IMG/VR virus record: IMGVR_UViG_3300000553_003130 | Span: 1 to 35,805 of that record | Length of the DNA: 35,805 nt | Origin: a virus | Reading direction: 5' to 3' (one strand) | Shown here: in pieces, positions 3,919-32,615 of the stretch | Numbering within the stretch: position 1 is the first letter of the stretch | How the letters are laid out: each line of letters begins with the position of its first letter | The notes under the pieces: generated by a model | Databases searched by the model: none | Told to the model about the DNA's origin: nothing | Seen by the model: the letters and a program-made list of their open reading frames with translations, nothing else | Made by a program: the position numbers and the translations under genes

Positions 3919-5421
3919 CTAACGCCCCAACAAGCCCGGCAGGCCTTCAAGGGCGTGTGCTACCAGCGGGTCCATGTACTGAACGGGTTGCTGAAGTTCC
4001 TTGCGAGCGACGGTTTCAGGAGCTGCCGATGCACGGAAACCTGGGCGCTGCGGGGCATCGCCTTCGAGTTCCTTAAGCCGGTCGTTCAAATCCAAGAGTC
4101 GCTGGTCAGCGAGTTCCTTGGTTTTCACACCTGCCTGCTCCATGGCGGCGATCCGGTTACTGAGTTCCTTCGTTCCTGAGAGGATCAGTTGTGCCAACAT
4201 GGTTGCCAGGGCTTCCTGCAATTCGCCGATCGTCATGTCGGCAATGCTAGGCCCGCTCGCGCCGGTTTCATCACCTTCGGCCGTTGCCTCATCAGGTGAT
4301 TCGCCGGCCTCTTCTTCGGTCGAGCCTTCAGGCCACAGACCCTCTGCAGGCGCGGGAGCCTTGGGCTCAGCAGCTGCAGTAGCAGCAGGCGGACCTCCAA
4401 ACGGCGAACCGGGCTTCTTGGCAGCAACGCCATCGGCCACCGCCTTATAACGGACACCGTCTTTAACGATCTCCTGTTCCTTCTGGGCAAGACCAGTCAC
4501 ATACTCTTTGGCCTTCCCTTCGTCCCCGATAAGGGCGACGAACTCCTTCCACTTCTCGTCTAAAGTCGCCATACTGTTCTCCTTATGCACTGTTATAGCA
4601 GTGTATGGATTCGCTGCCCTTTCATTTCGCAGCACCGAACGTTCGAATTTCCTTACGTGATGATAAACACCATCACTATCAGGCTCAGTAATTGGATACA
4701 GGAAGCCCAGCGATGCCGCGTAGTCGTCCTGATGTTCCTTAATCTTTTGGCCGATGAAGTCGTCCTTAAACGTCCCCGATTCGACCAACGTATGACCAGA
4801 CATTGCATTGAAGTCGCATGTTCCAATGTCTACGCCACTGCCCGGGACTCCCATGTGCCAAAACCGTAACGGTCCGTAGTCCCCAGTGCGATCACAGCGG
4901 TCGCAATCTTCCGCTAATGACTTGTAGGACAGGATCTCCCCTTCACGATCTTCGAAAGCATTGCTGGAAGTGATAATCCACCGCAACTTACCGTCGTTTT
5001 GCTTGAAGATTGCTAGATTGCCGACTTCTTTGCCGACAAACTGCTCAAAGCTTTGCTGCAGGGCCTCCAACGGGTTGACTTCAGCTTCGCGTCCACCAGC
5101 GGCCTTCTTGAAGGCATCCATAAGCCCCTTATGAACTGGTTTCTCACGTACAGAGGTGCGCTTGCCTGCAGGAGCTTTACCTTTACTGTGCGCCCCCGAT
5201 TCAGATTTGCCTCCACTTCCGCCCCCAGCCGCTCCGGGGTCATAGGTGCCGCGGTCGTGCATGTTAGCCATAGCGGCATTCTGCTGTTCCTGCGAGCTAA
5301 ATTCCTTCGTTTCAATAACGTCCCCAGGTATTTCATTGTTACTAACAGCCCATACGAACAATGCAAAGGCTTCAGTAGCTCCTTTTTCGATCATGTCGGA
5401 TACAAACGCTTCTTTGTTCAC
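3919..5421 (-). CDS. Prohead protease fused to scaffold-like C-terminus
   Basis: The protein has 500 residues. Residues about 135-290 resemble phage prohead proteases of the XkdF/S78 type: TSSNAFEDREGEILSYKS, then FWHMG with a candidate catalytic His189, then VESGTF with candidate Ser215. After residue 340 the chain becomes Ala/Pro/Glu-rich and then predicted helical (TIGELQEALATMLAQLIL and a Leu-rich heptad region), as expected for an internal scaffold released by proteolysis. The N-terminal 100 residues contain a Gly/Ser-rich stretch near 62-80. The gene lies just upstream of the capsid gene in transcription order, the standard protease-scaffold-capsid arrangement. Its start overlaps the stop of the metallopeptidase gene by 4 nt. 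Catalytic residues are assigned by motif only. Confidence 0.75.
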   Translation of the reverse strand: MNKEAFVSDMIEKGATEAFALFVWAVSNNEIPGDVIETKEFSSQEQQNAAMANMHDRGTYDPGAAGGGSGGKSESGAHSKGKAPAGKRTSVREKPVHKGLMDAFKKAAGGREAEVNPLEALQQSFEQFVGKEVGNLAIFKQNDGKLRWIITSSNAFEDREGEILSYKSLAEDCDRCDRTGDYGPLRFWHMGVPGSGVDIGTCDFNAMSGHTLVESGTFKDDFIGQKIKEHQDDYAASLGFLYPITEPDSDGVYHHVRKFERSVLRNERAANPYTAITVHKENSMATLDEKWKEFVALIGDEGKAKEYVTGLAQKEQEIVKDGVRYKAVADGVAAKKPGSPFGGPPAATAAAEPKAPAPAEGLWPEGSTEEEAGESPDEATAEGDETGASGPSIADMTIGELQEALATMLAQLILSGTKELSNRIAAMEQAGVKTKELADQRLLDLNDRLKELEGDAPQRPGFRASAAPETVARKELQQPVQYMDPLVAHALEGLPGLLGR

Positions 5422-6287
5422 TTAATCCATCCCCGTTTGGCAAACATGTCGTCAATGGCCTTTCCAATTGGCTTGAACGATTTGTGGGACCACATACCAC
5501 TCACGCTGCCTATCTTGTTTAGTCGATCGACTGCCCCTTTCATGGCAATATCCCCACTACGCGTAGCTATATATTGCGAATACGCTCGTGCCCATATCTC
5601 GTGGGGTTGAGTCAGATATTCGGCGTACTTGGCTACGCTGGCTCCAGCTGGAGCGCCACTTAGTTTGCCCGATTTCCATTCAGCATGTTCAGGCGACGCT
5701 TGAACCGCCTTCATAAACGGCGCGAATTCTTTTGCACCATTGCGAGCTCCCCCCTCCATCCCGGCCCCTTCAATATAATGCCCCATCTCATGCACAGCGA
5801 ATAATTTCTGATCGTCTTCACTACTGGCCTTGCTTAGTCCAATCTCAACCGGCCGACCATCTACAGTTTGCTTATAATACCCAAGCGTCTGTTTGCCCCC
5901 AGTCGCAACTACGGGCACTTTTGGCATGTCGTCTAATGAATGAACGGAGTTGATTACCTTCGCCGCATCCCTTGCAATGCCTGGGGTCTTAGATGTCGCT
6001 TGCAGGAAACTAGTAATCTTTGGGCCATCCCCGGGAGAATGGCTTTCGCCGTCGTCGCCTCCGCCCCCGTCCCCGCTCTCACTGCCACCGATCTCCCCGG
6101 GACGCCCTCCATGATCAAAGTCTCCAGAACTGGCGCTGCCCTTAACACCTACCTTAATGCCCGTTTTCTTCTTGGACTTGCCAACCTTACGATTGAGTCC
6201 CAAGCCCGGCGTGTTGAAGAGTCCGCCGGGCCCGTAAGCCATTACGGCATTCGGGGATTGATCGCCGACATCTTTGGTCTTAAACAT
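5418..6287 (-). CDS. Zinc metallopeptidase-like protein with Gly-rich tag
   Basis: The protein has 289 residues in three parts. Residues 1-35 contain NAVMAYGPGGLFNTPGL, nearly the same as a stretch in the capsid protein. Residues about 46-75 carry a glycine-rich tag (GSASSGDFDHGGRPGEIGG) like those in the portal fusion. The rest holds a zinc-binding HExxH (H166-E-M-G-H170), followed about 70 residues later by HEIWARAY, a downstream Glu-x-x-Ala-Arg-Ala pattern seen in gluzincin-like domains of phage and polyvalent proteins. It is therefore probably an active zincin. No signal peptide or membrane segment is visible. It sits between a methyltransferase and the protease/scaffold in the head operon, suggesting either an assembly role or a packaged effector. 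The substrate is unknown. Confidence 0.75.
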   Translation of the reverse strand: MFKTKDVGDQSPNAVMAYGPGGLFNTPGLGLNRKVGKSKKKTGIKVGVKGSASSGDFDHGGRPGEIGGSESGDGGGGDDGESHSPGDGPKITSFLQATSKTPGIARDAAKVINSVHSLDDMPKVPVVATGGKQTLGYYKQTVDGRPVEIGLSKASSEDDQKLFAVHEMGHYIEGAGMEGGARNGAKEFAPFMKAVQASPEHAEWKSGKLSGAPAGASVAKYAEYLTQPHEIWARAYSQYIATRSGDIAMKGAVDRLNKIGSVSGMWSHKSFKPIGKAIDDMFAKRGWIK

Positions 6288-7867: not shown

Positions 7868-8339
7868 GGAACACCAGTTTCAAGGCGTCGCGGAAATATA
7901 GGTGCTGTCGTTCGCGGGCTCGCACAGTTAGGATTTTAGTAAACCCACGAGCCTTAGTACCAGGATGATGAACTAAATACGCAGCCCTGGGCTGATCACC
8001 GGGCTTACCATTGTAGCTACTGACGATCTGCGGTTTGGTCTTCGGCGACCCGCCGGTTGCAAAACGTAACGGATAGCCTGGACCTTTGGGCTTGATAATG
8101 TGGGGGCGTGTGCCCCCATCTACGAACTTGTAGATCTTGTCACGCGTGCCTATGCTACGCCCATACTTAGTTTTGGTGATTGTAAACACCGGTTTGTCGT
8201 TCCAGGTTGCCACAGTTTTCTCGTACTCTGCTTGAGTCGCCCTTGCGTTGGCGTCTAACGACTTCTCGATAGCCGCTTCGACCTCATCAGGAGATCCGAC
8301 CGTCTTGCGGCCCACGTGGGGTGTGATCTTGACTCTCAT
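7857..8339 (-). CDS. HK97 gp10-like head-tail connector/minor tail protein
   Basis: The protein has 160 residues. The C-terminal half has the look of the HK97 gp10-like family: a loop YKFVDGGTRPHIIKPKGPG, then beta strands, then HHPGTKARGF and a terminal helix (RQHLYFRDALKLVF). Such proteins sit at the neck and help complete the tail or join it to the head. The N-terminal 50 residues are helical. It follows the portal fusion and a 62-residue protein in the operon, where connector genes are expected. A related region seems to be embedded in the portal fusion (residues about 770-930), so the phage may encode two connector-like modules. The assignment is from motif shape and context. Confidence 0.65.
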   Translation of the reverse strand: MRVKITPHVGRKTVGSPDEVEAAIEKSLDANARATQAEYEKTVATWNDKPVFTITKTKYGRSIGTRDKIYKFVDGGTRPHIIKPKGPGYPLRFATGGSPKTKPQIVSSYNGKPGDQPRAAYLVHHPGTKARGFTKILTVRARERQHLYFRDALKLVFHGK

Positions 8340-8475
8340 TGTGTTGCATCTGTGCCATCAGTTCGGCGTCAGTTGGTTGCCCCGTCTGAGCCGCATGCAT
8401 CTTCTCGACGACCTTGATCCAATTGTCATCTTCGTCGTTCGCCGTGTATACATAAACCGGTCTCTTGTCTGCCAT
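8287..8475 (-). CDS. Small acidic protein of the head operon
   Basis: This 62-residue protein is unrecognised. It is supported by a good ribosome binding site (AGAGGAA 6 nt before the ATG at 8475) and by filling the gap between the portal fusion stop (8485) and the gp10-like gene. It overlaps the gp10-like gene start by about 50 nt. The sequence is polar and helical (DDNWIKVVEKMHAAQ and DAELMAQMQHNE), with no membrane segment or Cys pairs. It could be a small connector or assembly factor, but nothing in the sequence fixes a role. Confidence 0.55.
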   Translation of the reverse strand: MADKRPVYVYTANDEDDNWIKVVEKMHAAQTGQPTDAELMAQMQHNESQDHTPRGPQDGRIS

Positions 8476-8484
8476 ATCATTCCT

Positions 8485-11400
8485 CTAGAAGGTCCTGCGT
8501 ATCCGAGCTTGTTGTGTGTACTTACCCTTTAGAATGAACTCTTGCTCACTAGCGCATCCTAAACCCGTCGACCAATGTGCAAACACCGCTTCCTTTGGGA
8601 CCTTGACTTTTAACACTACACCACGATTGCCTTCTCGGGCAAAGTCCTCTGCAACCGTCGGTGCTGTGGTCCAAGACGATAATGGTCGAGACTTAACGTT
8701 AACTAGTTCGCTTTCCTGGGGAAATGAACTAGCCCCGCTAATACCAGATTCACTCATTTTCTTATCGAAATGGACGCCACGGTACAGAGTTATCATCTCG
8801 CCATCTTTAACGCCGGCTTCGGTCAGAGCTTGCTGAGTCCGGGCGTAGATGTCCTTGTAGGCTACTTTAGCTGCTGCCTGAGACATCGAATTCTTTTCCG
8901 CGTTGGCAGTCTTCATGCCCCCCGACTCCTGCATATCAGCCCACCCGTCTTGTCTTCCGGCCTCGACCTGGAGATAGTCGGACATTGATCCACTATCGTT
9001 AGAGGAGTCAGCCCAGTCACTTAACAACGTACGACCCCTAGAACTCGGTATGCCTTGAGCCACCAATGCCGCACCTAAGGCCTTTTCCCCAGCTTCCTTA
9101 AGTGCCTGGCGACCTATGGTAGATGCGTGCCACTCAATCTTGTTGTAGGTGGCGTCACTGATCTCAGGGGCCGTGTCGTTAATTCCTGAACCACTACCTT
9201 CGCCAGATCCTCCGACTTCGCCTTCGCGACCGCTGTGGTCGAAGTTTCCAGACCCTTCGCCGCCTTTGAAAATGATGCCAAGCTCTTTGACGATGGCTGC
9301 CTTGATCGTGTCAGGCTTGTCGGGGTTGAAGCCGTCAATGTGTTCGGCATTGGCCCGTTTAACACCAGTAACCTTGATTTGGTCCTTGGCTAGGGCGCCG
9401 ATCCGTCGTGCCATTGAGTTTCGTTGGTCGGCTGTGTTGTCCCAGGCTCGCTCAAACCAGTTATTAGAGACTGCAGGTCCGACATGTTTTGTGTAGACCA
9501 GCTCGCCATCGGACCCAGGGAATACCAAGTATCCTTTTGGGTCTTTAGGCCCGAAACCACGTCGTCCATACAGACTACTGCGGACCACGACTTCGGGTCT
9601 TTCAGGACTGCCGGCGTAAACACGTAATTGGATGTCAGGACTGCCACGCCCCTCCACTAAATGCCTGATGCTGTCCCGCAACTTGCCTGACTCACCAGAC
9701 GTTCCACTTTGAGGACATTCGTCTTGCGCGGCCAGAACTAGGATCCGACCATACTCGTCTAGTTCGTCTGCCACTTTTTCCAGGTACATTGATTCCCCCA
9801 TTGAGGGTTCGTTGGAATCAATCAACTCCGCCCGTTTTGGGGAGATCGTCGTTAGATCTACGGTCGATCTCTCCTTAACCTTCTTGTCGTGTATGGCGGT
9901 ATGAACTATCGCATTAGTCGTGTACTTACCCTTAATGACGTATTCTTGTTCGTTGGCACACCCAAACCCCGTATGCCATGAGGCAAATATAGCCTTACGT
10001 GGGATCTGAGCCTGGATGATGACATGATGGGATCCGATGCCCAAGAAACCTTTGGCGATGTCGACATTCATAGTCCACGATGACAATGGCCGTGCATGTA
10101 CGCGTACCTTATCGCCGGCCTCGATCTTGGTAGTGTGGTACCCGAGGACGCCGCCTTCCTTAACCTTGTCGTAGCCGATGCCGCGATACATGGTTACGAA
10201 GTCGTCTTCTCCCCATCCAAGGCCGGCTAGGTATTCTTGGGTCCTGTCATATTGGGCCTTATAAATGTTCTGCCGTTCCTCAGCTCGAGCACTGTCGCCC
10301 CCTTCATCTCTGACGACAGTCTCCATACCTTTCGAGACATCCATGCTCTTCCAGCTATCGAGCTCTGCTCCAGCTTGTTGCATGGCGTCCTGATATCCAC
10401 CGCTATCATTGGACATATTCGCCCAAGATGCCAGGATGTTGTTGGCATAGCGCTCTTGGATACCTGCCTTAGCGGCCAGTTCTTTTGCGCCTTTGGCTTT
10501 AATAGCCCCGCGGTCTTTTATCGTGCCCTTGAACATTAAGTTCTTTAGTACATTATTGCCAACTGGCTGGCCGCCTTCGCCAGATCCTCCGACTTCGCCT
10601 TCGCGACCGCTGTGGTCGAAGTTGCCTGAACTAGCCGATCCCTTGGTACCTACCTTAGGCGCAAAGGCAGTAGACACTGCTTGCTGGACCTGCGGCAACG
10701 TCGCTGGAGGCATTTGTGCATTGGGGTCAATTACGCCCGGTTGAGCTGGAGGCACACCCCCCAGGCTTGCGTCAGCCGCACTATCGCCCTGCAAATCCGG
10801 GTTGTCGGTATCTTGGACCGTCTCGATTTGCGTTAACGGGGCAGGTACGAACTCTTTCGGTATGTCGCCTACATCCGCTGCCATCTGTTGCGACTGTTGA
10901 GCTGTAATCTCGCCACTTGCAATCTGCGCTTGCCGGGTTTGAGCTCGAGTAAGACGGACCTGTGCTTCGGCTTGCTGATCCCGCCAGTCCTTCTCGCTGA
11001 ACGCAAATGTCGTGGCGTTGCCTACAATCCCACGCAAGTTAAGCTGCTCGGCGAATGACTGGAACCACCCGAACTTGCCGTGCTCTTTGTCATCCAGGAC
11101 CTGCGACTGCGTGGCTGTGCCCATTGCTCGTCCCGTTAAGGGCTGAAGCTCCTGTGGGTCCAGGCCTATTGCGTCAGCATAGCGAAGATAGGCGTCCTGT
11201 CGTTCCTTATCGACATCAACACGGTCAGGGATTTCAGCCAGCTTGACCGTTACTACTTCAGGCTTAAGGTCCGATTGGGTTGCAACAATTGCCGCGCCCA
11301 TATAGGTCGTCAAGCCTTGCTGGTCCGCGACCAATTGAGCCCCTTGCAGTGATCCATCGATCTGCTTCTGCGACAGGTTACTAACAAATATCAGTTCCAA

Positions 11401-23224: not shown

Positions 23225-23251
23225 GAGGCCTACTAATCCTGGGCCTCTTTT
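23225..23251 (+). terminator. Rho-independent terminator
   Basis: GAGGCC and GGCCTC pair around an 11-nt loop and are followed by TTTT then GCGTTT. It sits between the ssDNA-binding gene and the primase-helicase start (23265). No TATAAT-type promoter is visible in the 14 nt after it, so it is likely partial. Confidence 0.7.
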
Positions 23252-23264
23252 GCGTTTCGATACC

Positions 23265-25646
23265 ATGTTAAACAACTTCATGTTTGGTGGCGGGAGAATG
23301 GTAATCGCAGACGGGCATCCGTCGGCACTGTCGTTCAATCCCCCCATCGAAAACAGCCCCAATAACATGTACTTTGGTCCTGCTTTACGTAGCGACGTAT
23401 CAGGTACTAAAGCTTCTGTTGTGGGGGCTAAAGCGTTGTGGGTAGACATTGACAATCTTAACAAGCCCGCCATGACCTTTCCTCCGTCGGCTATTGTGTT
23501 TAGTGGGCATGGGCACCATTGTTACTGGTTTTTGGAAGCCCCTGCTATGGGATCGGATCTCATCGAAGAACTAAACCAAATACTTCTAGCGGACATCCCT
23601 CAGGCCGACAAAGCCTGCTGGAATTCAAACCGGTTACTACGGGTTCCAGGGTCAATGAACATTAAACCAGGATTGTCCCCTGTAAAATGTGAACTCAAGA
23701 CCATGACAGGCCCAGTGTACAGCATTGATGACATTCGTGTTTTGGGCGACCTTTCGGACAACGTCATACAGAGAATACGATCGGGATCGGCTAAGGGCTT
23801 TCGTTCGCGGTCTGAACGCGATTGGGCAGTAGTCTGTGCCTTGGTGGAAGCTGGGGCTACTGATGCATTGATCGAACGGCTCTTTAAGTTGCAGCCCATT
23901 GGGGACAAGCTCATAGACCCTGCGACCCCTCAAGAATACTTAAAACATACTATCGAGAGGGCGAGGGCCAAAGTAGATGAGGCCCCAAAAGGCAAACAGC
24001 CTAAAGAGCCGGTCGTTCAAGAACTCACCCAAGGCGTTGATGGGTATTACCGGGGCAAAAAGAAAGTCAGTACGTTTGTCATGGAACCCAAGATTCTACT
24101 TGACGGCAGTCATTTCAAGACCGATGATGCTGTCATTGTAGACGTAAAGGCTAATGGGTATGTGTGGGCGGACATTCCTTTCGGACGTAAGGCATTCACT
24201 GGAGTCGCTCAGTTAGATAAGGAATGCCCTGTGGCAGCTTGGCAATGGATTGGACACGACAATGATGTCCGTCAGTTGCTGCCATTGATAATCTCCCAAC
24301 TGCAAGTTAAGGGGTTGCCGCATGTATCGGCGACTCCCATGTTGGGGCTACACTTGGTCAAGGATAAATGGTATTTCATCGGGCCAACTCAAACGTTGAC
24401 TGCTGATGCCATTTACACCGGGTATACGGGAGCTCTGTGCTGGTTGCCGCGTAATACTGAATACCCACATGTTGACCTATGCCCTAATGTGTCTCCAGAG
24501 CAATTGGAACTTGCACGTACATGGATTCCACAGGTCAATACCGCCGAAGTAATGTACCCCTTGATCGGATGGTACTATGCTTCACTATTGAAACCATGGC
24601 TTGAGACGCAGGGTTATCGATTCCCGATTCTCAACATGACTGGTACAAGAGGCGCGGGCAAAACCACTCTTTTGTTACGGATCATGATGCCATTGTTCGG
24701 ACAACCAGAAGCTAAGTCGTATGATGCAAATACCACTAAGTTCGTTTCCCTTACCTTGTTGGGATCCGCCAATGCCATTCCTATCGCCTTCAGCGAGTTC
24801 CGATTTGCTTCAAGCAGTGACTTCCTTAGGTACATTCTACTATCGTACGATACAGGACATAACCCCAAAGGTAGAGGCGATCTCTCAACAGTTGACTATC
24901 CTTTGGCAGCCCCTTTTAGTCTCGATGGCGAAGATGCTATCACAGATGCCGCCGCTCAGCAACGAGTCATTGTCATTCAGCCTAAAACCAGTACTACTGA
25001 TGAAGGCACACCCGCCTTTGCCGCTTACAACAAGATACGGGCGAACATACCGAACTTGGGTGGCTACTTCATACAGCAGGGCCTCAAGGCGATCGAATCC
25101 GGGGTTGCCGTGCAGGAATTGCAACTAGCCCACGCGGACATGTTAACGGCGTTTCCAAACAAGATGCCTGACCGAATTAGGAACAACTATACTGTAGTTC
25201 GATTCGGAATGAGAATGTGGACTAGATCCGTAGGGGGTGTGCTTCCGCCTACCGAACTCTTTAGGTCATCGATTGAGACGTTGTGCGATCTTAAGACTGG
25301 CAGGTCTCGAACGGGGTCTGATGAGTTTGTAGAGGCGGTCGTTAATGAAATACTTAACCGCACATCGTTAACGTATTTCAAGTGGTACTATGATCCTGAT
25401 ACTAAGATCGTGTACTTTCAATTACAAGCCCATAGCTGGTGGTTACAACTGAAACGCCGGGAAGGCAACTTAGCCCCGCTAGGCCTAGACGCAATTCGAA
25501 GTCAGTTAAAGGAACAGTCGTACTTTGTCCCCGCTAAGATTCACAACGGCGTGACAATGATCGGCATTAAGTTAGATGTAGCTGCTGCTGCGGGGCTAGA
25601 TGTCCCGGAGCAACTAAACGTCGGCATACTGGAAATAGCACTATGA
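23265..25646 (+). CDS. Primase-helicase with AEP-type primase domain
   Basis: This 793-residue replicative protein has an N-terminal archaeo-eukaryotic-type primase signature: LWVDIDN with Asp61 and Asp63, then VFSGHGHHCYWFLEAP as the His-containing motif II, and NRLLRVPGSMNIK as motif III. The C-terminal half holds a Walker A GTRGAGKTT (about residues 459-467) and an ATPase domain like those in phage D5-type or DUF927-type helicases. The combination makes RNA primers and unwinds the fork. I placed the start at the ATG at 23265; a TTG at 23250 lies in the terminator T-run. The segment SVGGVLPPTELF is encoded by the repeated 13-mer (25233-25245). It overlaps queC by 4 nt. Confidence 0.8.
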   Translation: MLNNFMFGGGRMVIADGHPSALSFNPPIENSPNNMYFGPALRSDVSGTKASVVGAKALWVDIDNLNKPAMTFPPSAIVFSGHGHHCYWFLEAPAMGSDLIEELNQILLADIPQADKACWNSNRLLRVPGSMNIKPGLSPVKCELKTMTGPVYSIDDIRVLGDLSDNVIQRIRSGSAKGFRSRSERDWAVVCALVEAGATDALIERLFKLQPIGDKLIDPATPQEYLKHTIERARAKVDEAPKGKQPKEPVVQELTQGVDGYYRGKKKVSTFVMEPKILLDGSHFKTDDAVIVDVKANGYVWADIPFGRKAFTGVAQLDKECPVAAWQWIGHDNDVRQLLPLIISQLQVKGLPHVSATPMLGLHLVKDKWYFIGPTQTLTADAIYTGYTGALCWLPRNTEYPHVDLCPNVSPEQLELARTWIPQVNTAEVMYPLIGWYYASLLKPWLETQGYRFPILNMTGTRGAGKTTLLLRIMMPLFGQPEAKSYDANTTKFVSLTLLGSANAIPIAFSEFRFASSSDFLRYILLSYDTGHNPKGRGDLSTVDYPLAAPFSLDGEDAITDAAAQQRVIVIQPKTSTTDEGTPAFAAYNKIRANIPNLGGYFIQQGLKAIESGVAVQELQLAHADMLTAFPNKMPDRIRNNYTVVRFGMRMWTRSVGGVLPPTELFRSSIETLCDLKTGRSRTGSDEFVEAVVNEILNRTSLTYFKWYYDPDTKIVYFQLQAHSWWLQLKRREGNLAPLGLDAIRSQLKEQSYFVPAKIHNGVTMIGIKLDVAAAAGLDVPEQLNVGILEIAL

Positions 25647-26344
25647 ACAGTACAGCAATTATATCAGTTAGTGGCGGACTTGATTCGACCACTTTACTTC
25701 ATTACATTGTCGGGCAGGGAGAAAAGCCCATTGCCGTCATGTTCGATTACGGCCAACGGCATGATAAAGAATGCGGTTGTGCTGTTGAACAATGCAGCAA
25801 GTTAGAAGTCCCATGGATGTTTATTCAGCTTGACGAATACCAAGACATTGCTTCGCGAATGTCGGCGCTTGTGAACCCCTTGATCGCCGTGCCGACTGTC
25901 CAAGAGGCTATGGGCGATCCTCAGCCGGTCAGCTATGTCCCAAACCGTAACATGTTGTTTTTGAGCTACGCTGTCGCCATGGCTGAATCATTGGGCATCA
26001 GGAACGTCTACTACGGCGCGCAAAAGCATGACACTTACGGTTATTGGGACACCACACCAGAATTCGTTGCCGCCTTGAACGGTGTTTACCGGTTAAACCG
26101 TAAGAACCCGATTCAGATCTTAGCCCCCTTTGTCAATAAGTCGAAGGCGGATGAGATCCTACTTGGAATCGAGTTGGGCATCGATTACGCCAATACGTGG
26201 TCATGCTATCAAGGGGGCGATAAGGCATGTGGCGTGTGTGCTACTTGCGCTGAACGCCTTAAGGGCTTCATGGACGCTGGCATCCCCGATCCGCTTGAAT
26301 ATGCCTTCTTACCGTCGGGCTATAAGCAGCGGTTTGGTGTATAA
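25643..26344 (+). CDS. queC: 7-cyano-7-deazaguanine synthase (QueC)
   Basis: This 233-residue protein converts 7-carboxy-7-deazaguanine to preQ0 using ATP and ammonia. It has the PP-loop SGGLDST (10-16), FDYGQRH (35-40), the conserved PVSYVPNRNMLFLS (95-108) and four zinc Cys at C188, C196, C199 and C202. Length is normal. Its ATG overlaps the primase-helicase stop, so it starts the modification operon. The 3' end carries a promoter, so the protein ends Phe-Gly-Val before a TAA that is part of TATAAT. In phage 9g QueC is fused to Gat; here Gat is a separate downstream gene. Confidence 0.95.
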   Translation: MNSTAIISVSGGLDSTTLLHYIVGQGEKPIAVMFDYGQRHDKECGCAVEQCSKLEVPWMFIQLDEYQDIASRMSALVNPLIAVPTVQEAMGDPQPVSYVPNRNMLFLSYAVAMAESLGIRNVYYGAQKHDTYGYWDTTPEFVAALNGVYRLNRKNPIQILAPFVNKSKADEILLGIELGIDYANTWSCYQGGDKACGVCATCAERLKGFMDAGIPDPLEYAFLPSGYKQRFGV

Positions 26345-26345
26345 T
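26340..26345 (+). promoter_or_regulatory. -10 element of a leaderless promoter overlapping a stop codon
   Basis: GGTG-TATAAT contains the queC stop codon, and the ATG at 26352 follows exactly 6 nt later. The -35 position has no good match. This would give the middle of the modification operon a second, leaderless transcript. Confidence 0.55.
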
Positions 26346-26351
26346 TGTCTT

Positions 26352-26621
26352 ATGGACATTAAACTCATTCCTACGGAAGAACTTATCAACGACTTGTTGA
26401 ATTCGCGGATCGACATTGGGGTCTGCAAGACGGCATTGGAAGTCGGGATCACTGTATACAGTGGTGGTTCCGTGGCTAGTCGTATGATTGTCAACGAGAA
26501 GATGTGCGTCATGATCGAAGCCGAATTGAAACGGAGGAACGTATGTGTGGAATCTACGGAATCTTCAACCGTCCTGGAAGTAGCTCCGACCACCGAGAAC
26601 TCCTTGCTCTTAACCGAGTAA
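26352..26621 (+). CDS. Small protein between queC and the Gat gene
   Basis: This 89-residue protein is unrecognised. It starts 6 nt after TATAAT and overlaps the amidotransferase gene by 79 nt. Residues 1-60 look like a compact helical domain (IPTEELINDLLNSRIDIG and MIVNEKMCVMIEAELKRR), and the rest is low-complexity Ser/Thr/Glu. A helical N-terminus suggests protein-protein contact, perhaps linking QueC and Gat, which are fused in some phages. This is speculation based on position. Confidence 0.55.
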   Translation: MDIKLIPTEELINDLLNSRIDIGVCKTALEVGITVYSGGSVASRMIVNEKMCVMIEAELKRRNVCVESTESSTVLEVAPTTENSLLLTE

Positions 26622-27229
26622 GGGGGGACTTGGGTGGTGGGCTTGTAAGCTTCAATAATGACAATTCATACCGGCAAGTACTACGGAGTACTTGCCTTGC
26701 TGACGTCAATGAAGCCCGAAATCGGGGCAACGTTGTTTTGGGACATGTGCGAGCTCCCACAGGAGGACAGACCGACACAGTAGACTTTCTACATCCGTTC
26801 GAGACTGCCGATTTCATGCTGGCCCACAACGGGTTACTACTTAACTGGTACAAGCCTGTCGCTTACGGGTTACCAAATGTTGACAGTGCTTGCATGCTTG
26901 AGATCATTCAACGTACGTACAGTGAACGCGGGTCAGTCTTGTACGCCATTCAGTTGGCCTGTGAAGAACTGCAGGGGCAGTTTGCATGTTGGCTTTATCA
27001 TAAGACAACCGGCGATGTCTACATTTGGCGTTGTATGAGCCCATTGTGGATTACACATACCCAGGAATGGACATCCGTTAGTAGTGTTTGTCCCTCAATG
27101 CCTAAAGAAGGGTGTCTTGTAGAACCGTTGCCTGAGGGGCAGATTCGAAAGTTCAGTTACAGCGATATGATGTTTCATACCGTTGCGTTATTTTCATTAC
27201 CGGAGGACTATCCATATGCTATCGATTAA
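26543..27229 (+). CDS. Class II glutamine amidotransferase (Gat) for 7-deazaguanine DNA modification
   Basis: This 228-residue protein has the N-terminal nucleophile Cys2 (MCGIYGIFNRPG), then LGHVRAPTGG, LHPFE and LAHNGLLLNW, the standard glutaminase pattern of class II amidotransferases, which release ammonia from glutamine. Only the glutaminase domain is present, with no synthetase partner fused. In crenarchaea and phage 9g a Gat-QueC fusion turns preQ0 into archaeosine. Here queC, gat, queD, queE, folE and dpdA form one operon, so Gat probably feeds QueC as a separate subunit. CGGAGGAAC precedes the ATG. A 9-bp perfect hairpin lies in its 5' half. Confidence 0.8.
   Translation: MCGIYGIFNRPGSSSDHRELLALNRVRGDLGGGLVSFNNDNSYRQVLRSTCLADVNEARNRGNVVLGHVRAPTGGQTDTVDFLHPFETADFMLAHNGLLLNWYKPVAYGLPNVDSACMLEIIQRTYSERGSVLYAIQLACEELQGQFACWLYHKTTGDVYIWRCMSPLWITHTQEWTSVSSVCPSMPKEGCLVEPLPEGQIRKFSYSDMMFHTVALFSLPEDYPYAID
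26674..26695 (+). other. Perfect 9-bp hairpin inside the Gat gene
   Basis: GCAAGTACT and AGTACTTGC pair around the loop ACGG. No T-run follows. It lies 130 nt into the gene and could affect mRNA stability or translation, or be coincidental. Confidence 0.45.
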
Positions 27230-27644
27230 GATTGAGGATCACTTCTCGGCTGCCCATCGTATTGAGGGGCATCCTAAGTGCGGCCGCTTGCATGGGCATA
27301 ACTACGTTGTAGAAGCAGTGTTTGCCGGCCCGATCACGGGCATGGGCTACATTGCTGACTTTGCCGAATTGAAAGCAATTCTCAAGGACATCACTGACTC
27401 GGTCGACCATGTGTACCTGATTTCGGGGTCCAACATTCAGGCCGGCGATCCTTACGCGGAAATCGCTCGTGACCGTGATGAAGCCGCCGAGATTGATGTC
27501 GACGTTTCCAGCGCTGAGCAATTGGCCGAGTGGTTCTACAACATGATCCGACGCGCGCTAAACATTGATTCGGACGTAACGATCGAATCGGTTAAGGTCT
27601 ACGAGACCCCGAATACATGGGCGGAATACAATGCCAGAAGCTAA
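27216..27644 (+). CDS. queD: 6-carboxytetrahydropterin synthase (QueD)
   Basis: This 142-residue protein is a T-fold enzyme making 6-carboxy-tetrahydropterin from dihydroneopterin triphosphate. Zinc ligands are His14, His26 and His28 and the catalytic Cys is Cys22 (GHPKCGRLHGHNY). The late Glu is in ESVKVYETPN. Length is near normal for the family. GGAGG is 8 nt upstream of the ATG, and the start overlaps the Gat stop by 14 nt. It is the second step of the preQ0 pathway after FolE. Confidence 0.95.
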   Translation: MLSIKIEDHFSAAHRIEGHPKCGRLHGHNYVVEAVFAGPITGMGYIADFAELKAILKDITDSVDHVYLISGSNIQAGDPYAEIARDRDEAAEIDVDVSSAEQLAEWFYNMIRRALNIDSDVTIESVKVYETPNTWAEYNARS

Positions 27645-27915
27645 TCGCGATCCGCTGGACGCTCGTTACGATTTGCTGGAAGAAGGCTTCTTGACTGCCA
27701 TGGCTCAGACAATGGCGGCCGGCGAAAAGAAGTACGGGGTTGACAATTGGAAGAAGGGGCTCCCTCATGGCAAGGGGGCCCTCAATCATGCGTTGTACCA
27801 TCTGTTGCAAGCCAGCAAGGGCGGACCTGACGCCCTGATGCATTTGGCTCATGCAGGGTGCAACATCATGTTCCTATTCTGGTTTGAGGAGGCTGCAAAT
27901 GTACGTGGTCAATGA
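27631..27915 (+). CDS. DUF5664-like putative dATP/dGTP diphosphohydrolase
   Basis: This 94-residue protein resembles the phage family annotated as DUF5664 (dATP/dGTP diphosphohydrolase, N-terminal domain): RYDLLEEGFLTAMAQTMAAGEKKYG followed by NWKKGLPHGKGALNHALYHLLQA and a helix with HLAHAGCNIMFLFWFE. Related all-alpha MazG-type folds use acidic residues to bind metal and cleave nucleotides. It lies between queD and queE, with overlaps of 14 and 17 nt. It may adjust the purine nucleotide pool for the modification pathway, which uses GTP. Family assignment is by pattern only. Confidence 0.55.
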   Translation: MPEANRDPLDARYDLLEEGFLTAMAQTMAAGEKKYGVDNWKKGLPHGKGALNHALYHLLQASKGGPDALMHLAHAGCNIMFLFWFEEAANVRGQ

Positions 27916-28819
27916 GATTTTCAACAGTGTTCAGGGCGAAGGCGTGAAAGCCGGGGTCTGGAGCACATTCATCCGCTTGCAGGGATGTCCTGTTGGTTGC
28001 AAGTGGTGTGATTCGGTACGAACATGGGGCCCGGGAACCAAGACCGCAAACTACTGGCTTGGGTACATCGCTTCCTGGTATATGGGTAGTGACAATCCCC
28101 TGCCGAAATGGGTTCCCATTACTGTGGAAGTCATCGAGCATAGTCAGCACGATTACGACCGCGGGCGTGTTGCTGGATGGTTCGATGCCACTGACATGCA
28201 TTTGGATCGGGAAGTTCTGGCGTTACTGGAACAAAACGGTTTCGACGTTGCGATACATGATCATAAAATGTGGCCTCAGGACATGCAGTTTTTCTTGGAC
28301 TATTATCAACCGTCAAACGAATCGTTGTGGGGCGGGCTTACTCCCAAACTTAGCGGCACCAAGATGTCTGCCGAACAGATTGCCGAACAAGTCAAGGCTA
28401 AGCATGTCGTCATTACCGGGGGCGAACCCATCCTGTGGAACTTGGACGAATTGATGCTGGCCATTGGGGATGATCACACCATCCAGATCGAGACATCGGG
28501 GCTTAACGACTTCAAGGGCATGATTACGCCGAACTGGGTTACCTGGTCGCCCAAGCAAAACCTACTGTGGGATGCCCCATCGAGATTCAAGTTCTTGGTC
28601 GATGAAGTAAAATGGGTTGTCGATGACGCATTAACCCCCCGAATGATAATCGACACCATGGAATGGTTTAGCAACCATGCACGTAGGCCTAAGTACGTAC
28701 TGATGCCGGAAGGTTGCCCCCCGTCAAAGGTCGCGATCCAAAAGGTCTTTGATCTGTTGACCGCTATCCCAGAAACTGTATTTGGTCCCCGGCTTCAGTA
28801 TTACCTGGGGGTACGATAA
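27899..28819 (+). CDS. queE: 7-carboxy-7-deazaguanine synthase (QueE) with large insertion
   Basis: This 306-residue radical SAM enzyme converts carboxytetrahydropterin to 7-carboxy-7-deazaguanine. The start MYVVNEIFNSVQGEG and the cluster C30-x3-C34-x2-C37 match QueE, and TGGEP (residues 173-177) and FKFLVDE later are conserved. Usual QueE proteins have 210-245 residues. Here about 80-90 extra residues lie between the Fe-S motif and TGGEP, containing HSQHDYDRGRVAGWF and IHDHKMWPQDMQFFLDYY. The insertion is in frame, so it is not a frameshift. It could be a lid, an oligomer contact or a partner site. The ATG overlaps the previous gene by 17 nt. Confidence 0.9.
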   Translation: MYVVNEIFNSVQGEGVKAGVWSTFIRLQGCPVGCKWCDSVRTWGPGTKTANYWLGYIASWYMGSDNPLPKWVPITVEVIEHSQHDYDRGRVAGWFDATDMHLDREVLALLEQNGFDVAIHDHKMWPQDMQFFLDYYQPSNESLWGGLTPKLSGTKMSAEQIAEQVKAKHVVITGGEPILWNLDELMLAIGDDHTIQIETSGLNDFKGMITPNWVTWSPKQNLLWDAPSRFKFLVDEVKWVVDDALTPRMIIDTMEWFSNHARRPKYVLMPEGCPPSKVAIQKVFDLLTAIPETVFGPRLQYYLGVR

Positions 28820-29376
28820 TGCCCACGCCAACTCAAATCAAGGAATTGTCAAACGTACTGAACAGCGTCTTCCGCGCCGAATCATGGGATGATGGCGTGG
28901 AAGAGACTGCCCGACGTGTATTGTCGTACTGGGAATCAATGGTTGAGCCCGTCAAGATGCCGTTTACGTTTACGACATTTCCAGCGGTCGCCAACCAAAT
29001 GATAATTGTCAAGGACGTTGAGTACACCAGTATGTGCGCACACCACCTTCTGCCCTTCTACGGGGTCGCTCACGTGGCCTACATTCCGAACCGCAGAATG
29101 GTGGGGCTGTCTAAGATACCCCGAGTTATTGACTGGTTTGCACACCAGCCTCAGACCCAAGAAAAGCTGACGACCCAGATCGCTAAGTTTCTCAAGGACG
29201 CATTGGAAGCCCATGGCGTATCAGTAGTCATGGAAGCTCGGCACACCTGCATGAGTTGCCGCGGGGTCATGAAGTATGAAGCGTCGATGATTACTTCGGA
29301 ACAGCGTGGCGTTTTCCTGACCTCAGGTGAAGCCCGTGCCGAGTTCATGGCGTTGATAAATCGATCGCGTATGTAA
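28819..29376 (+). CDS. folE: GTP cyclohydrolase I (FolE)
   Basis: This 185-residue protein performs the first step of the pathway, turning GTP into dihydroneopterin triphosphate. Zinc ligands Cys73 and His76 are in MCAHHLLPFYG, and Cys144 is in ARHTCMSCRGV. YIPNRRMVGLSKIPR is the conserved substrate and oligomer region. Length is normal. The TAATG overlap with queE indicates translational coupling. A phage-borne FolE raises precursor supply beyond host levels. Confidence 0.95.
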   Translation: MPTPTQIKELSNVLNSVFRAESWDDGVEETARRVLSYWESMVEPVKMPFTFTTFPAVANQMIIVKDVEYTSMCAHHLLPFYGVAHVAYIPNRRMVGLSKIPRVIDWFAHQPQTQEKLTTQIAKFLKDALEAHGVSVVMEARHTCMSCRGVMKYEASMITSEQRGVFLTSGEARAEFMALINRSRM

Positions 29377-29391
29377 TTCGTGGGATTAAAC

Positions 29392-30105
29392 ATGGGAATT
29401 AAACTTGCACACATTGTTCCGCCATCATTTGGAGACCTGTATCGGACAGGCTACTATTTGGCTTTAGGCCAGAAGTTGTTGTCTGATCGTGGTTACCGCG
29501 AACAGACCCTCCGCCTATCAAAGGCAGGGGGTTTTGTTATTGTTGACAATGGGGCCGCTGAATTCGATCAGCCCCCATTTGCCGACGTCGCTCAGGTGGC
29601 TGCTTATGTACGGGCTGCAGAAGTGGTCATGCCTGACGTATTGTTCGACAAAGAAGCCACCATCGCGAATGTTACTGCCCTAAAGAATCGTAACTTGGTT
29701 CCGCCTGAACAACGATTGATAATCCCCCAAGGCAATACAATCGCCGAATGGTTCGAATGCCTGGCATTCCTGAAAGAAGCCGTAGCATTTGGAACTCTTG
29801 GGATCCCAAAGCATCTAGAGAAGCATGAGGGGGGACGTGCCAAAGTCATGAACGAGCTGCCGGCCACAGCCCAGCGTATTCACTTCTTTGGGGTCTATCA
29901 GGATCCCAAGACTGAAATCGCAACTGCTGTAGCAGCTAAGGTTCGCGGACTTGATAGTGGCGCAGCAGTGGCTTATGCTCAAGCAAACATGCGGCTTGAC
30001 AGCGGCATTCATGTCTCACTTAATTGGGACGCTCGTCCCGGTCCACAAGAACGAACCGAAGCGTTCAAAAACATCATGCAAATGGAGGACTGGGCCAATG
30101 GCTGA
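29392..30105 (+). CDS. dpdA: Phage DpdA-like DNA 7-deazaguanine transglycosylase
   Basis: This 237-residue protein resembles short phage DpdA proteins, distant relatives of tRNA-guanine transglycosylase, which replace guanine in DNA by a 7-deazaguanine base. Visible features are GGFVIVDNGAAEFD with a likely active-site Asp52, VVMPDVLFDKEATI, the barrel strand LGIPKHLEKHEGG and IHFFGVYQD. It lacks the zinc domain of tRNA-type enzymes. It follows folE by 15 nt in the preQ0 operon, and its stop overlaps the next gene by 8 nt. Identity rests on motif pattern plus operon context. Confidence 0.8.
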   Translation: MGIKLAHIVPPSFGDLYRTGYYLALGQKLLSDRGYREQTLRLSKAGGFVIVDNGAAEFDQPPFADVAQVAAYVRAAEVVMPDVLFDKEATIANVTALKNRNLVPPEQRLIIPQGNTIAEWFECLAFLKEAVAFGTLGIPKHLEKHEGGRAKVMNELPATAQRIHFFGVYQDPKTEIATAVAAKVRGLDSGAAVAYAQANMRLDSGIHVSLNWDARPGPQERTEAFKNIMQMEDWANG

Positions 30106-30325
30106 GTACTACGAACGTTACTTCGGCAACAAACAAGATCCAACACGCGCAACAGTAGTAGACGGGATTGTGGTGTCAATTTATTTGCCCCGCAATGCCA
30201 GCCTGCTGCAGCGCCTAGTCGAGCCATCATATATTGGTAAGACCGCCGCCGAACTGGAGGCTTTAGGATTTTACAATGAACGACAAACTACCGAAAGCTC
30301 ACTGTCAAAACTGCACGCTTCGTAA
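30098..30325 (+). CDS. Small protein between dpdA and the polymerase
   Basis: This 75-residue protein is unrecognised. GGAGGAC precedes the ATG at 30098, and the frame overlaps dpdA by 8 nt and the polymerase by 50 nt. The sequence MAEYYERYFGNKQDPTRATV continues with IYLPRNASLLQRLVEPSYIG, suggesting a small mixed fold. No Cys or metal motif is visible. It may be an accessory factor of either neighbour. Confidence 0.55.
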   Translation: MAEYYERYFGNKQDPTRATVVDGIVVSIYLPRNASLLQRLVEPSYIGKTAAELEALGFYNERQTTESSLSKLHAS

Positions 30326-32615
30326 CGAGTCACTGGTACCGCCCTGTGGTCCTGATGACGCCAAGATTATTGTCATTGGCGAAGGGCCTGGGGCTACCGA
30401 AGTCGATAAGGGGCAGCCGTTTGCAGGCCCTGCCGGCAAAGTACTTGACTACACACTCAGGCACGCCAATGTTGAACCCGCGTTCGTCTGGAAAACGAAT
30501 GTGGTGATGTGTCGACCGCCTGCCAATCGAGACCCCAGTCCCAACGAAATCTTGTGCTGTCGTGATCGCTTAGCCGCTGAACTGGAAGCACACCCCCGAG
30601 CCATAGTTCTGCCGCTTGGGAAAATGGCGACCTCCACGCTTGGCCTGGATTTCAAGAACCGCGGGCTTTGGCAAAAGTATCAGGGGCATGATCTCATTAC
30701 GTCATGGCATCCCGCCTACATATTGCGCCAGCCTGACGAGCTTAATGTTCTCATAAACGACATCCGTAAAGTAGCTCGGGGGCCCGAAGCAGCGATTAAA
30801 GCTCCCAAGATTATCATGCCGCGCAGTCTTGAGGAATTACAGGCTGCGCTCGTACGATTGGAAGCCGACAGTACCAACAACTGGGTCGCGTTTGATCTAG
30901 AGACAGACCAACTACGATGGTACGATACCAAGTCGGAACCCAAAGATTCCATACTGTGCTTGGCCTTGTGTTCACGGACTGACTACGCCGTGATTGTCAA
31001 CGACGAAATGCTGTATGACACCGCCGGAGTTCAAAACGAACTCCAAACGTTCTTCAATGCCATGAAAGCCATTGGGCACAATGCTAAGTTCGATGTTCTG
31101 CATCTCCGCAACATTGGCATTGAGGTCGCGCCTGCGTTTGACACAATGTTGGCCCACTACGTACTGGATGAAAATAGTAAACATGGGCTAAAAGAATTGG
31201 CGGCTAATTGGCTTGGGGTACCTGACTATGAAGAAGAGTTGGTCCAGAAGTACTTGAAGTCACGCAACGACCGCTACAGCAAAGTACCTCCAAACGAGCT
31301 GGCCCAATACGCCGGCTGGGACGTAGCAATAACACTGTCTCTTAAGGTTATTTTCACCGATCTGTTACTGCGCAACAAGCAGTACAACATGCCGTTCTAC
31401 GGCGTGCTTATGCCTGTGAGTCTAATGGCCACTGAGATGGAACGCGTCGGCATTATGGTCGATACCGAATACCTGGTTCGGGTGAGATCGGCCCTTAGCG
31501 GCATCAGCGAAGCAGCTGTCGACGAAATGAAAACGATTTCGGGAGAGCCCGACCTAAACATCGGTTACCCTGCCGCGCTAAGCAAAGTGATGTACGGCAA
31601 ACTGGGGTTCAAGAAGCCTGTAGGTAAAGGGATCTCGTCTGCGGCCACAAGCAAAGCAGCGTTGGTTGAATTGCCAGATGTACCGTTCACACGGGCCCTA
31701 CGTCGCTATCGGGCCGCCAATAAGATGCGATCGGCATACGTTGAAAATCTGTTGGAGAACCAGGACGAAAACGACAGGGTCCATTGTACAGTTTTGGTTC
31801 ATGGGACTGAGATCGGGCGAATCTCAATGCGCAATCCGGCACTGATGACGATCCCACGGGAAAAGGGCAATCCATACGGGGCCATGATTCGTGGGGCTTT
31901 CATCGCCAAGCCAGGGCATAAGCTGATTATCATTGACTACAGTCAAGCTGAACTGCGTGCAATGGCCGCTCTAAGCATGGAGCCGTTTCTAATCGATGTA
32001 TACGCGCATGATAGGGATTTGCATACAGAAGTAGCTAAAGCCATGTTTGGCGCTAATTACACTAAGGAACAGCGCGTACAATGCAAGATGTTTAACTTCG
32101 CTTACGCTTACGGCGGAACTGAATACAGCTTTGCAAGAGACGCGGGATTACCACTGAACGTGGCCCAAAAGTTTGTTGCCGACTACGACAAGAACATGCC
32201 GGTGTTGAAGGCCTGGAAACGGGCTCAAATGGAACAGTTGCGGGCTAAGGGCTACGTTCAAACTCCGTTCGGTCGGCGACGTCGCTTTCCGATTATCACT
32301 CAGGAGAATGAGGACGATGCACGTAAGGCATGCGTGCATATGCCTGTGGCTAGCACAGCTGCAGATCTAACATTATTGAGTTGCGTAGAGCTTAGCCAAG
32401 GGGGGTTTGAGGTTGTTCTTACTGTACACGACAGTATTATCATTGAGGCCCCCGATCATATGGCTAATGAAGTCGGAGAGATAGCGTTAGCAGTGATGGT
32501 AGGTATGGGGGAGAAGTACTTGCCGCAGGTAAAGTGGAAAGCGGACGTGGATATCGTTGATAGATGGGCCGAAGCGCCGGAGATCAAGTTCGATGAATCC
32601 GCACCGGAGCTCTGA
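30276..32615 (+). CDS. Family-4 uracil-DNA glycosylase domain fused to DNA polymerase I (family A)
   Basis: The protein has 779 residues. Residues 1-175 match family 4 UDG: Cys10-x2-Cys13 with Cys79 and Cys94/95 for an Fe-S cluster, GEGPGATEVDKGQPFAGPAG (35-54), and SWHPAYILR (143-151). Residues about 200-360 are a proofreading exonuclease (D207 and E209 in AFDLETD, D273 in AKFD, D349 in YAGWDVA). The polymerase has motif A IDYSQAELR (D554), motif B R600-x3-K604 to Y612-G613 and motif C TVHDS (D719). All catalytic acids look intact. Fusing uracil removal to synthesis may exclude uracil or sense a modified base. Confidence 0.9.
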   Translation: MNDKLPKAHCQNCTLRNESLVPPCGPDDAKIIVIGEGPGATEVDKGQPFAGPAGKVLDYTLRHANVEPAFVWKTNVVMCRPPANRDPSPNEILCCRDRLAAELEAHPRAIVLPLGKMATSTLGLDFKNRGLWQKYQGHDLITSWHPAYILRQPDELNVLINDIRKVARGPEAAIKAPKIIMPRSLEELQAALVRLEADSTNNWVAFDLETDQLRWYDTKSEPKDSILCLALCSRTDYAVIVNDEMLYDTAGVQNELQTFFNAMKAIGHNAKFDVLHLRNIGIEVAPAFDTMLAHYVLDENSKHGLKELAANWLGVPDYEEELVQKYLKSRNDRYSKVPPNELAQYAGWDVAITLSLKVIFTDLLLRNKQYNMPFYGVLMPVSLMATEMERVGIMVDTEYLVRVRSALSGISEAAVDEMKTISGEPDLNIGYPAALSKVMYGKLGFKKPVGKGISSAATSKAALVELPDVPFTRALRRYRAANKMRSAYVENLLENQDENDRVHCTVLVHGTEIGRISMRNPALMTIPREKGNPYGAMIRGAFIAKPGHKLIIIDYSQAELRAMAALSMEPFLIDVYAHDRDLHTEVAKAMFGANYTKEQRVQCKMFNFAYAYGGTEYSFARDAGLPLNVAQKFVADYDKNMPVLKAWKRAQMEQLRAKGYVQTPFGRRRRFPIITQENEDDARKACVHMPVASTAADLTLLSCVELSQGGFEVVLTVHDSIIIEAPDHMANEVGEIALAVMVGMGEKYLPQVKWKADVDIVDRWAEAPEIKFDESAPEL

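Follow-up and report, generated by a model that had tools for sequence, protein, structure and literature searches.

The window analysed here, the whole 35,805 nt of IMG/VR record IMGVR_UViG_3300000553_003130 from an uncultivated tailed phage, carries an operon that is predicted from its genes to hold the full set for swapping some DNA guanines to a 7-deazaguanine base. Judged by phylogenetic comparison, the stand-alone glutaminase Gat encoded beside its preQ0 synthase gene queC is a member of a widespread and so far unrecognised family accompanying one QueC lineage, and is not a broken-off piece of Gat-QueC. Our preferred and fairly probable reading is a self-contained 7-deazaguanine operon in which Gat would be QueC's separate, ammonia-feeding subunit and mainly dPreQ0 would be made. 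A glutaminase partner of QueC appears to have been overlooked so far, an earlier mention elsewhere in the literature being possible.

Operon layout

The genes queC, an 89-aa ORF, gat, queD, queE, folE and dpdA follow one another in this order at 25643-30105, with the following features in and around them:

23250..25646, + strand: primase/helicase-like gene upstream of queC, context (phrog_10514, phrog_3123)
25643..26344, + strand: queC, 7-cyano-7-deazaguanine (preQ0) synthase, 233 aa (PF06508, E=1.9e-57; TIGR00364 above cut-off)
26352..26621, + strand: 89-aa ORF, function unassigned (coding-like codon use, weak ribosome site)
26543..27229, + strand: gat, stand-alone class II (Ntn) glutamine amidotransferase, 228 aa (profile, model, trees)
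27216..27644, + strand: queD, 6-carboxytetrahydropterin synthase (PF01242, QueD/PTPS, E=6.5e-29; TIGR03367, 4e-22)
27631..27915, + strand: dATP/dGTP diphosphohydrolase-N (dGTP_diPhyd_N, MazG-like) protein, 94 aa (PF18909, E=1.2e-15; phrog_801)
27899..28819, + strand: queE (NCBIfam TIGR04322, 1.5e-27; PHROG QueE phrog_2076, 2e-25)
28040..28330, + strand: insertion of about 100 aa within QueE, ends approximate (alignment)
28819..29376, + strand: folE, GTP cyclohydrolase I (PF01227, E=7.5e-56)
29392..30105, + strand: dpdA-like gene, compact TGT-fold base-exchange enzyme, 237 aa (fold comparison, family alignment, synteny)
30276..32615, + strand: DNA polymerase fused to a UDG-superfamily domain and a 3'-5' exonuclease, context (PF03167, PF01612, PF00476)

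All four synthesis enzymes of the phage preQ0/7-deazaguanine pathway (FolE, QueD, QueE and QueC) are encoded, together with a TGT-family base-exchange enzyme (DpdA) that displays a TGT fold and conserved Asp, Gln and His residues. The original prediction of a complete preQ0 operon was thus borne out by gene content for both preQ0 synthesis and DNA insertion, its six genes (queC, gat, queD, queE, folE and dpdA) being found in the order and at the positions proposed. The dGTP_diPhyd_N gene between queD and queE was absent from its gene list. QueC retains both its SGGLDS P-loop and its Cys4 zinc motif, and its gene shares 4 nt with the primase/helicase-like gene. Dozens of viral contigs have this order of genes, far more than chance would give, and a DNA-level search with the whole operon against phages returned zero matches. 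The nearest relative with a stand-alone Gat, L015 (IMGVR_UViG_3300048838_000123, 40% identity), has the same gene order and, alone among the aligned relatives, the same QueE insertion; it differs from the window by a queC/gat overlap and by two tandem dpdA genes.

The 89-aa ORF has a codon score of 0.375, like that of the neighbouring genes, and was without matches in Pfam and PHROG and in a tblastn search of phages. In L015 the ORF is missing and the gat start lies in the queC stop codon (TAATG). The ORF is lineage-specific and probably outside the core device, as judged from these comparisons, and its proposed role as a part of that device was not upheld. It had also been described as separating gat from queC: an ORF does lie there, but it shares 79 nt with gat (26543-27229) and so provides no clean separation.

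Fold and catalytic residues of Gat

Gat and QueC are separate ORFs, each with its own start codon, as opposed to the single polypeptide of a Gat-QueC archaeosine synthase, and gat is preceded by a Shine-Dalgarno GGAGG. The expected free-standing 228-residue Gat is present, with both the class II fold and the catalytic residues. The match of Gat to Pfam GATase_6 is weak (1.4e-5, just below cut-off); the profile match to GlmS identifies a clear class II glutaminase (1.6e-15). The structural model (pLDDT 87.9) superimposes on GlmS 2j6h with Z 23.4 and an rmsd of 3.1 over 211 aligned residues and displays the Ntn-hydrolase fold. The key residues of a class II glutaminase are in place: the C2 nucleophile, the glutamine-binding R70, the N96-G97 oxyanion hole and D114. 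The position of the glutamine-binding GlmS Arg73 is Gln in 46 of the 48 Gat family members and Leu in L015, Arg being kept in the window (Arg70) and in L147, which leaves some doubt about whether the family has glutaminase activity; a literature search found no biochemistry of stand-alone clade members. The window Gat carries the motif HVRAPT, of the H-x-x-A-P-T type that is the hallmark of its clade, and lacks the NxRAEPTTE motif of the fused clade.

Ancestry of Gat and its pairing with QueC

Stand-alone Gats form their own clade in the trees, with support of 98/92, rising to 100/96 with more rows, and the window Gat groups with those of nt-1, pf16 and 2.275.O (100/96). Grouping the window Gat with the fused Gats was rejected (p-AU 0.0154), which, with the missing NxRAEPTTE, sets it apart from the Gat domain of Gat-QueC archaeosine synthases and contradicts the original description of a Gat split from QueC. 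A single clade (100/97) likewise unites the QueCs encoded next to stand-alone Gats, and the plain QueCs found in sister phages of the window lie apart from it. The match between Gat and QueC clades indicates that the pair is co-inherited.

The closest known systems are those of Vibrio phages nt-1, KVP40, 6E35.1a and 2.275.O and of Pseudomonas phage pf16, in all of which, as in the window, queC is followed directly by the gene for a free-standing class II Gat, with both proteins falling in the same clades as the window's. They differ from the window in their large T4-like or myovirus genomes, in the Gln at the GlmS Arg73 position of their Gats, in the DpdA2 of nt-1 and 6E35.1a where the window has a compact DpdA, and in the QueF that KVP40 and 6E35.1a carry in addition. 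Their Gats are annotated as 'hypothetical' or 'nucleophile aminohydrolase', and the published accounts that we found credit nt-1 only with ArcS and KVP40 with QueF, leaving the gene that touches queC unnamed. The nt-1 Gat, ORF392, matches 51 GenBank phage records, including KVP40, nt-1 and pf16, in each of which the gene lies directly beside queC (as listed or checked), mostly annotated 'hypothetical'. A queC with a free-standing gat is thus not an unusual layout in nature.

The pairing also emerged from a scan of IMG/VR viral contigs that made no use of QueC and yielded about 80 Gat loci, all free-standing. In 66 of the 80, queC lies within 4 kb, touching or overlapping gat in 35; of the remaining 14, L172 alone lay on a contig extending 3 kb upstream. 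Alignments were needed as queries for such searches, since the single window Gat or DpdA protein retrieved zero relatives. Adjacency in unrelated phages and the matching clades support the earlier suggestion that Gat and QueC act as separate partner subunits, which we consider very probable from these sequence data. A parallel within the QueC superfamily is the two-subunit archaeal GMP synthetase with its separate downstream GATase (PMC13329287).

Proposed pathway and predicted base

FolE, QueD and QueE would convert GTP to 7-carboxy-7-deazaguanine (CDG), and QueC, in ATP-dependent amide-forming and dehydrating steps, would turn CDG by way of ADG into preQ0. Gat may hydrolyse glutamine and pass the ammonia to QueC within a putative complex of the two subunits. 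Bacterial QueC works with free ammonia and does not require a dedicated glutaminase; the supply from Gat would free QueC from the need for free ammonium. The compact DpdA would then exchange guanine in phage DNA, its presumed substrate rather than tRNA or a nucleotide, for the new base, mainly as dPreQ0, which may protect the genome against restriction enzymes.

The main rival for the product is 2'-deoxyarchaeosine (dG+), as originally predicted: Gat and QueC would work like fused Gat-QueC and make G+, the ammonia from Gat serving the nitrile-to-amidine step on preQ0. We judge this rather unlikely. In Enterobacteria phage 9g, Pantoea phage Vid5 and archaea (archaeosine synthase), a class II Gat also works with QueC, in the phages within a preQ0/DpdA operon, but there Gat and QueC, in this order, are one polypeptide, fall in clades separate from the window's, and give dG+. 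Phages with the fused form indeed carry this base (9g, PMC6884629; Vid5, 7.55%, PMC8306585), and 9g Gat-QueC with DpdA yields it in E. coli (PMC6884629). The dG+ product would fit a class II Gat with intact C2, R70, N96 and D114 adjoining QueC, and a window in which neither QueF nor another end-step enzyme was found; moreover, a sister relationship of the fused and stand-alone Gat clades, hence a shared origin, was not rejected (p-AU 0.32). Against it stand the tree position and missing motif of the window Gat described above, and the bases measured in phages with a stand-alone Gat, which are mainly dPreQ0 or dPreQ1 (PMC6884629, PMC12028318), a comparison of two phages per Gat form in which the free-Gat phages use DpdA2 and differ in QueF. 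The DNA of nt-1, whose cluster is without queF, holds 232 dPreQ0, 72 dADG and 44 dG+ per 10^6 nt (PMC6884629 Table 2), a trace level of 0.11% of G that makes this phage weak evidence on the product. Its trace dG+ favours the archaeosine product, although an ArcS homologue in nt-1 could account for it. Phage 6E351A, with the gene order queF-queC-gat, has dPreQ1 at 15% of dG (PMC12028318), so that its preQ0 must pass to QueF. A QueF search of the window and of the 55-kb record of L015 gave a single sub-threshold match, FolE itself, owing to T-fold similarity; the window record is linear and at 35.8 kb may be incomplete, relatives measuring 50-56 kb, and QueF or ArcS may lie outside it. On our best reading of this comparison, the window base is predicted to be dPreQ0 rather than deoxyarchaeosine.

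If this is true, phage preQ0 synthesis would have at least three variants, in which QueC acts alone, is fused to Gat, or is accompanied by a stand-alone Gat from a different clade, and the base in DNA may be predictable from the variant. Base prediction from metagenomes would become more reliable, with caution against taking any Gat as a sign of dG+.

It is improbable that Gat is unrelated to base synthesis, as in podophage amidoligase/gamma-glutamyl cyclotransferase clusters, with QueC alone leading to dPreQ0. The window Gat has tblastn matches of about 25% to the amidoligase-cluster Gats of Pseudomonas phages NV1 and UFV-P2 and Pseudoalteromonas phage RIO-1, but in the trees it joins the stand-alone Gats linked to QueC (100/96) and lies apart from the amidoligase-cluster ones, queC is nearby in most of the independently found Gat loci, and the Gat clade is mirrored by a clade of the partner QueCs. 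Assignment to the RIO-1/NV1 amidoligase type, suggested by tblastn, was accordingly ruled out by the trees, and the gene content of the operon does not show the amidoligase/ATP-grasp neighbours of that type.

We regard as very unlikely a two-subunit synthase of stand-alone Gat and QueC whose product is neither dPreQ0 nor dG+, possibly with nucleotide-level replacement by the TGT-like and MazG-like proteins; the Gln or Leu in place of the glutamine-binding Arg in most family members would suggest such a changed donor or role.

A compact TGT-fold DpdA

Pfam and NCBIfam searches with the dpdA product gave zero matches, and a search of PDB sequences with the family profile returned spurious weak matches only, for which reason fold comparison was used. 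The AlphaFold2 model (pLDDT 95.3) matches arcTGT 1iq8 (VIA Z 18.0), and TGT by Foldseek (prob 1.00). The family alignment points to D52, D82, Q113, H164 and D188 as the conserved residues; among 56 sequences, D52, D82 and D188 are at least 90% conserved and H164 is invariant, in keeping with a TGT fold that retains its catalytic Asp and a conserved His. Both 9g DpdA and nt-1 DpdA2 are TGT-type like the window enzyme, which is much shorter and very divergent. Profile-profile comparison gave a weak match to 9g DpdA (hhalign probability 5.5%, E 0.007), with the LDSGA/LDNGA, H-x-x-G and DS motifs in register, and E 7.6e-5 with DpdA2.

The least probable alternative is a nucleotide-level route, in which a dGTP pyrophosphohydrolase-like protein clears dGTP, the TGT-like enzyme uses dGMP and the polymerase incorporates the analogue: queD and queE flank a MazG-like/dGTP_diPhyd_N or DUF6378-type gene both in the window and in most close relatives, P-loop kinases adjoin the same dpdA family in phiST, MA9V-3, Youna2 and BSTP12, dpdA adjoins polA in most loci, and modified dGTP has been suggested for Campylobacter phages (PMC6884629), but TGTs, the enzymes that the model matches, act on polynucleotides, the window genes scanned include no recognised nucleotide kinase, and DpdA systems studied to date are taken to act post-replication. 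Small MazG-like genes are, besides, common in phages.

Weizmannia phage Youna2 and Bacillus phage BSTP12 share the window's primase-queC-queD-queE-folE-dpdA (compact)-polA layout, but have no Gat, a QueC of another clade and a P-loop kinase adjoining dpdA. A GTG at 29380 is an alternative start of the window dpdA. The divergent family comprises 80 viral loci, mostly adjoining folE and UDG-PolA (the UDG-polymerase gene adjoins dpdA in most relatives), with a free Gat only in L015 and a fused Gat only in L070. Many uncultivated phages would thus carry a compact, unannotated TGT-type DpdA family.

Operon layout and gene identities

The original prediction described an operon of six genes, queC, gat, queD, queE, folE and dpdA, all of which are present in that order, but it had overlooked a 94-residue dGTP_diPhyd_N gene between queD and queE. 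The window corresponds to the entire IMG/VR virus record, which is linear, 35,805 bases long and possibly a fragment.

Genes of the operon and its flanks (operon genes from ORF listing and translation unless stated)
23250-25646, primase-like gene, flanking the operon
25643-26344, queC
26352-26621, 89-residue ORF
26543-27229, gat
27216-27644, queD
27631-27915, 94-residue dGTP_diPhyd_N gene (PF18909, 1.2e-15)
27899-28819, queE
28819-29376, folE
29392-30105, dpdA
30276-32615, UDG-exonuclease-PolA fusion, flanking the operon

QueC, QueD, QueE and FolE were firmly identified by family searches, all operon genes including the 89-residue ORF are backed by codon usage, and gat is preceded by a clear ribosome site (GGAGG). 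The 89-residue ORF had been noted as separating queC and gat; we set it outside the queC-gat unit because in L015 (IMGVR_UViG_3300048838_000123), the nearest relative with a stand-alone Gat, gat starts within the queC stop codon.

Most close relatives carry a small MazG-like-sized gene between queD and queE (window 27631-27915; L015:5769-6137; L022:4641-4907; L008:6921-7340), dGTP_diPhyd_N in the window and DUF6378-like in the relatives, and in pf16 a pyrophosphohydrolase lies immediately downstream of gat. Among the aligned phages, only the two that also have a stand-alone Gat show a QueE insertion of ~100-125 residues between the CxxxCxxC and GGEP motifs (window about 28040-28330; L015:6118-7167). 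Operons of sister phages encode a DJ-1/PfpI-family protein (L022:4903-6736, L010:4699-6526, L028:1594-2277), accompanied in L022 and L010 by a methyltransferase; such proteins may catalyse alternative end steps that lead to further 7-deazaguanine derivatives. Other variants are a 678-residue QueC ORF with an apparent intein (L071:9958-11994; CFSKDTNILTPTG ... VENNHNFSAGEYGSILISN), two tandem, overlapping QueC-like genes (L020, 3226-3993 and 3948-4637) and YhhQ-type (Vut_1) preQ0 transporter genes within the operon (L011:5313-6029, Pfam-confirmed; L019:6275-6910, candidate).

A stand-alone Gat inherited with its own QueC

The 228-residue Gat, which begins with MCG, retains C2, R70, N96-G97 and D114. 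In structural comparison its model (pLDDT 87.9) scores Z 23.4 against GlmS and Z 23.1 against 1xff, the glutaminase domain of GlmS, and the family profile matches GlmS at 1.6e-15; by fold and residues it is a class II glutaminase, with activity predicted. The position of the glutamine-binding Arg73 of GlmS is Gln in most of the family, Arg in the window and the related locus L147 and Leu in L015, and the prevalent Gln may reflect an altered donor, affinity or role.

The same gene lies downstream of queC in nt-1, V07 and pf16, and a search with the L015 Gat surfaced it in Vibrio phage 2.275.O as a 'nucleophile aminohydrolase', there too placed after queC. It is present in 51 GenBank records, in most of them labelled 'hypothetical'. 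A scan of viral contigs with a six-sequence Gat alignment, QueC not being used, retrieved 80 loci, and in each of them Gat is free-standing. queC lay within 4 kb in 66 of them, the genes touching or overlapping in 35; of the loci whose contig extends 3 kb or more upstream, a single one was without queC. In contigs of T4-like marine phages (L145-L196), many of the QueCs that accompany a stand-alone Gat have lost the zinc-binding cysteines (TCYSxx..DAxxPSS) and retained the P-loop, and in L162 an IMPDH/GMP reductase-like gene (4970-5992; PF00478, 2.7e-54) sits between queC and gat.

Gat trees resolved three sets: the stand-alone clade (support 98/92 with 6 rows, 100/96 with 29), the fused Gat-QueC clade (100/97-99) and other phage Gats. 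Direct tblastn had first suggested that the window Gat was of the amidoligase-cluster type, from which the trees set it apart. Constraining it into the fused clade was rejected (p-AU 0.0154), and a sister relationship of the two clades was not (p 0.32). Gat is free-standing downstream of queC as originally proposed, but it does not belong to the fused lineage from which a split would derive it. QueCs adjoining stand-alone Gat likewise form one clade (100/97), which does not include the plain QueCs found in sister phages of the window, and among 80 loci of the window's dpdA family a stand-alone Gat occurs in L015 only and a fused one in L070. The simplest history suggested by these sequences is that the plain queC of this lineage gave way to a queC-gat pair that is inherited jointly. 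The 7-deazaguanine pathway and the use of Gat together with QueC are already known; in the literature examined, coverage of which is incomplete, we found no account of stand-alone Gats that form a clade and are co-inherited with a QueC clade of their own.

QueC requires ammonia for the conversion of CDG to ADG, which is then dehydrated to preQ0. Most simply, Gat beside QueC would be the ammonia donor. A parallel is offered by two-subunit archaeal GMP synthetases, members of the QueC superfamily, in which the gene for the GATase lies downstream of that for the standalone subunit (PMC13329287).

Predicted base

Two phages with fused Gat-QueC contain 2'-deoxyarchaeosine (dG+): 9g, whose gat-queC and dpdA yield dG+ in E. 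coli (PMC6884629), and Vid5, with 7.55% dG+ and negligible dPreQ0 (PMC8306585). Of those with stand-alone Gat, nt-1 contains 232 dPreQ0, 72 dADG and 44 dG+ per million nucleotides (PMC6884629), and 6E351A contains dPreQ1 at 15% of dG (PMC12028318), its cluster being ordered queD-folE-dpdA2-queF-queC-gat (record 6E35.1a). No QueF was found in the window or in the record of L015. By analogy with the stand-alone phages, dPreQ0 is the expected base in place of the dG+ originally predicted. We consider dG+ rather unlikely and nevertheless a serious rival, since the division by Gat form is correlative, with two phages representing each form and other genes differing as well.

A compact DpdA family

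The dpdA product had no match in Pfam or NCBIfam. In phages, weak tblastn matches came from Cellulophaga phiST, Chryseobacterium MA9V-3, Bacillus BSTP12 and Weizmannia Youna2, the proteins all lacking a DpdA annotation and each encoded within a folE/queE cluster, and an alignment of them retrieved 80 relatives in viral contigs, with folE upstream within 3.5 kb in 53 and PolA/UDG downstream within 2.5 kb in 68. The AlphaFold2 model (pLDDT 95.3) resembles tRNA-guanine transglycosylases (Foldseek probability 1.00; archaeal TGT 1iq8, VIA Z 18.0, rmsd 3.3 over 225 residues). H164 is invariant, and D52, D82, Q113 and D188 each reach 90% conservation or more; profile comparison places the family very far from 9g DpdA and nt-1 DpdA2. 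From the pathway, we infer that compact DpdA acts on DNA.

The UDG domain fused to an exonuclease and a PolA polymerase (window 30276-32615) lies immediately 3' of dpdA in most of the 80 loci, possibly linking uracil removal with base modification. P-loop kinase-like genes adjoin compact dpdA in BSTP12, phiST, MA9V-3 and Youna2 (L003:5468-6031; L004:11382-11861; L005:10695-11165; L006:11303-11854). L015 carries compact dpdA in two tandem copies (7938-8675 and 8678-9412), and Microbacterium phage Megan (L113) likewise has two adjacent TGT-like genes.
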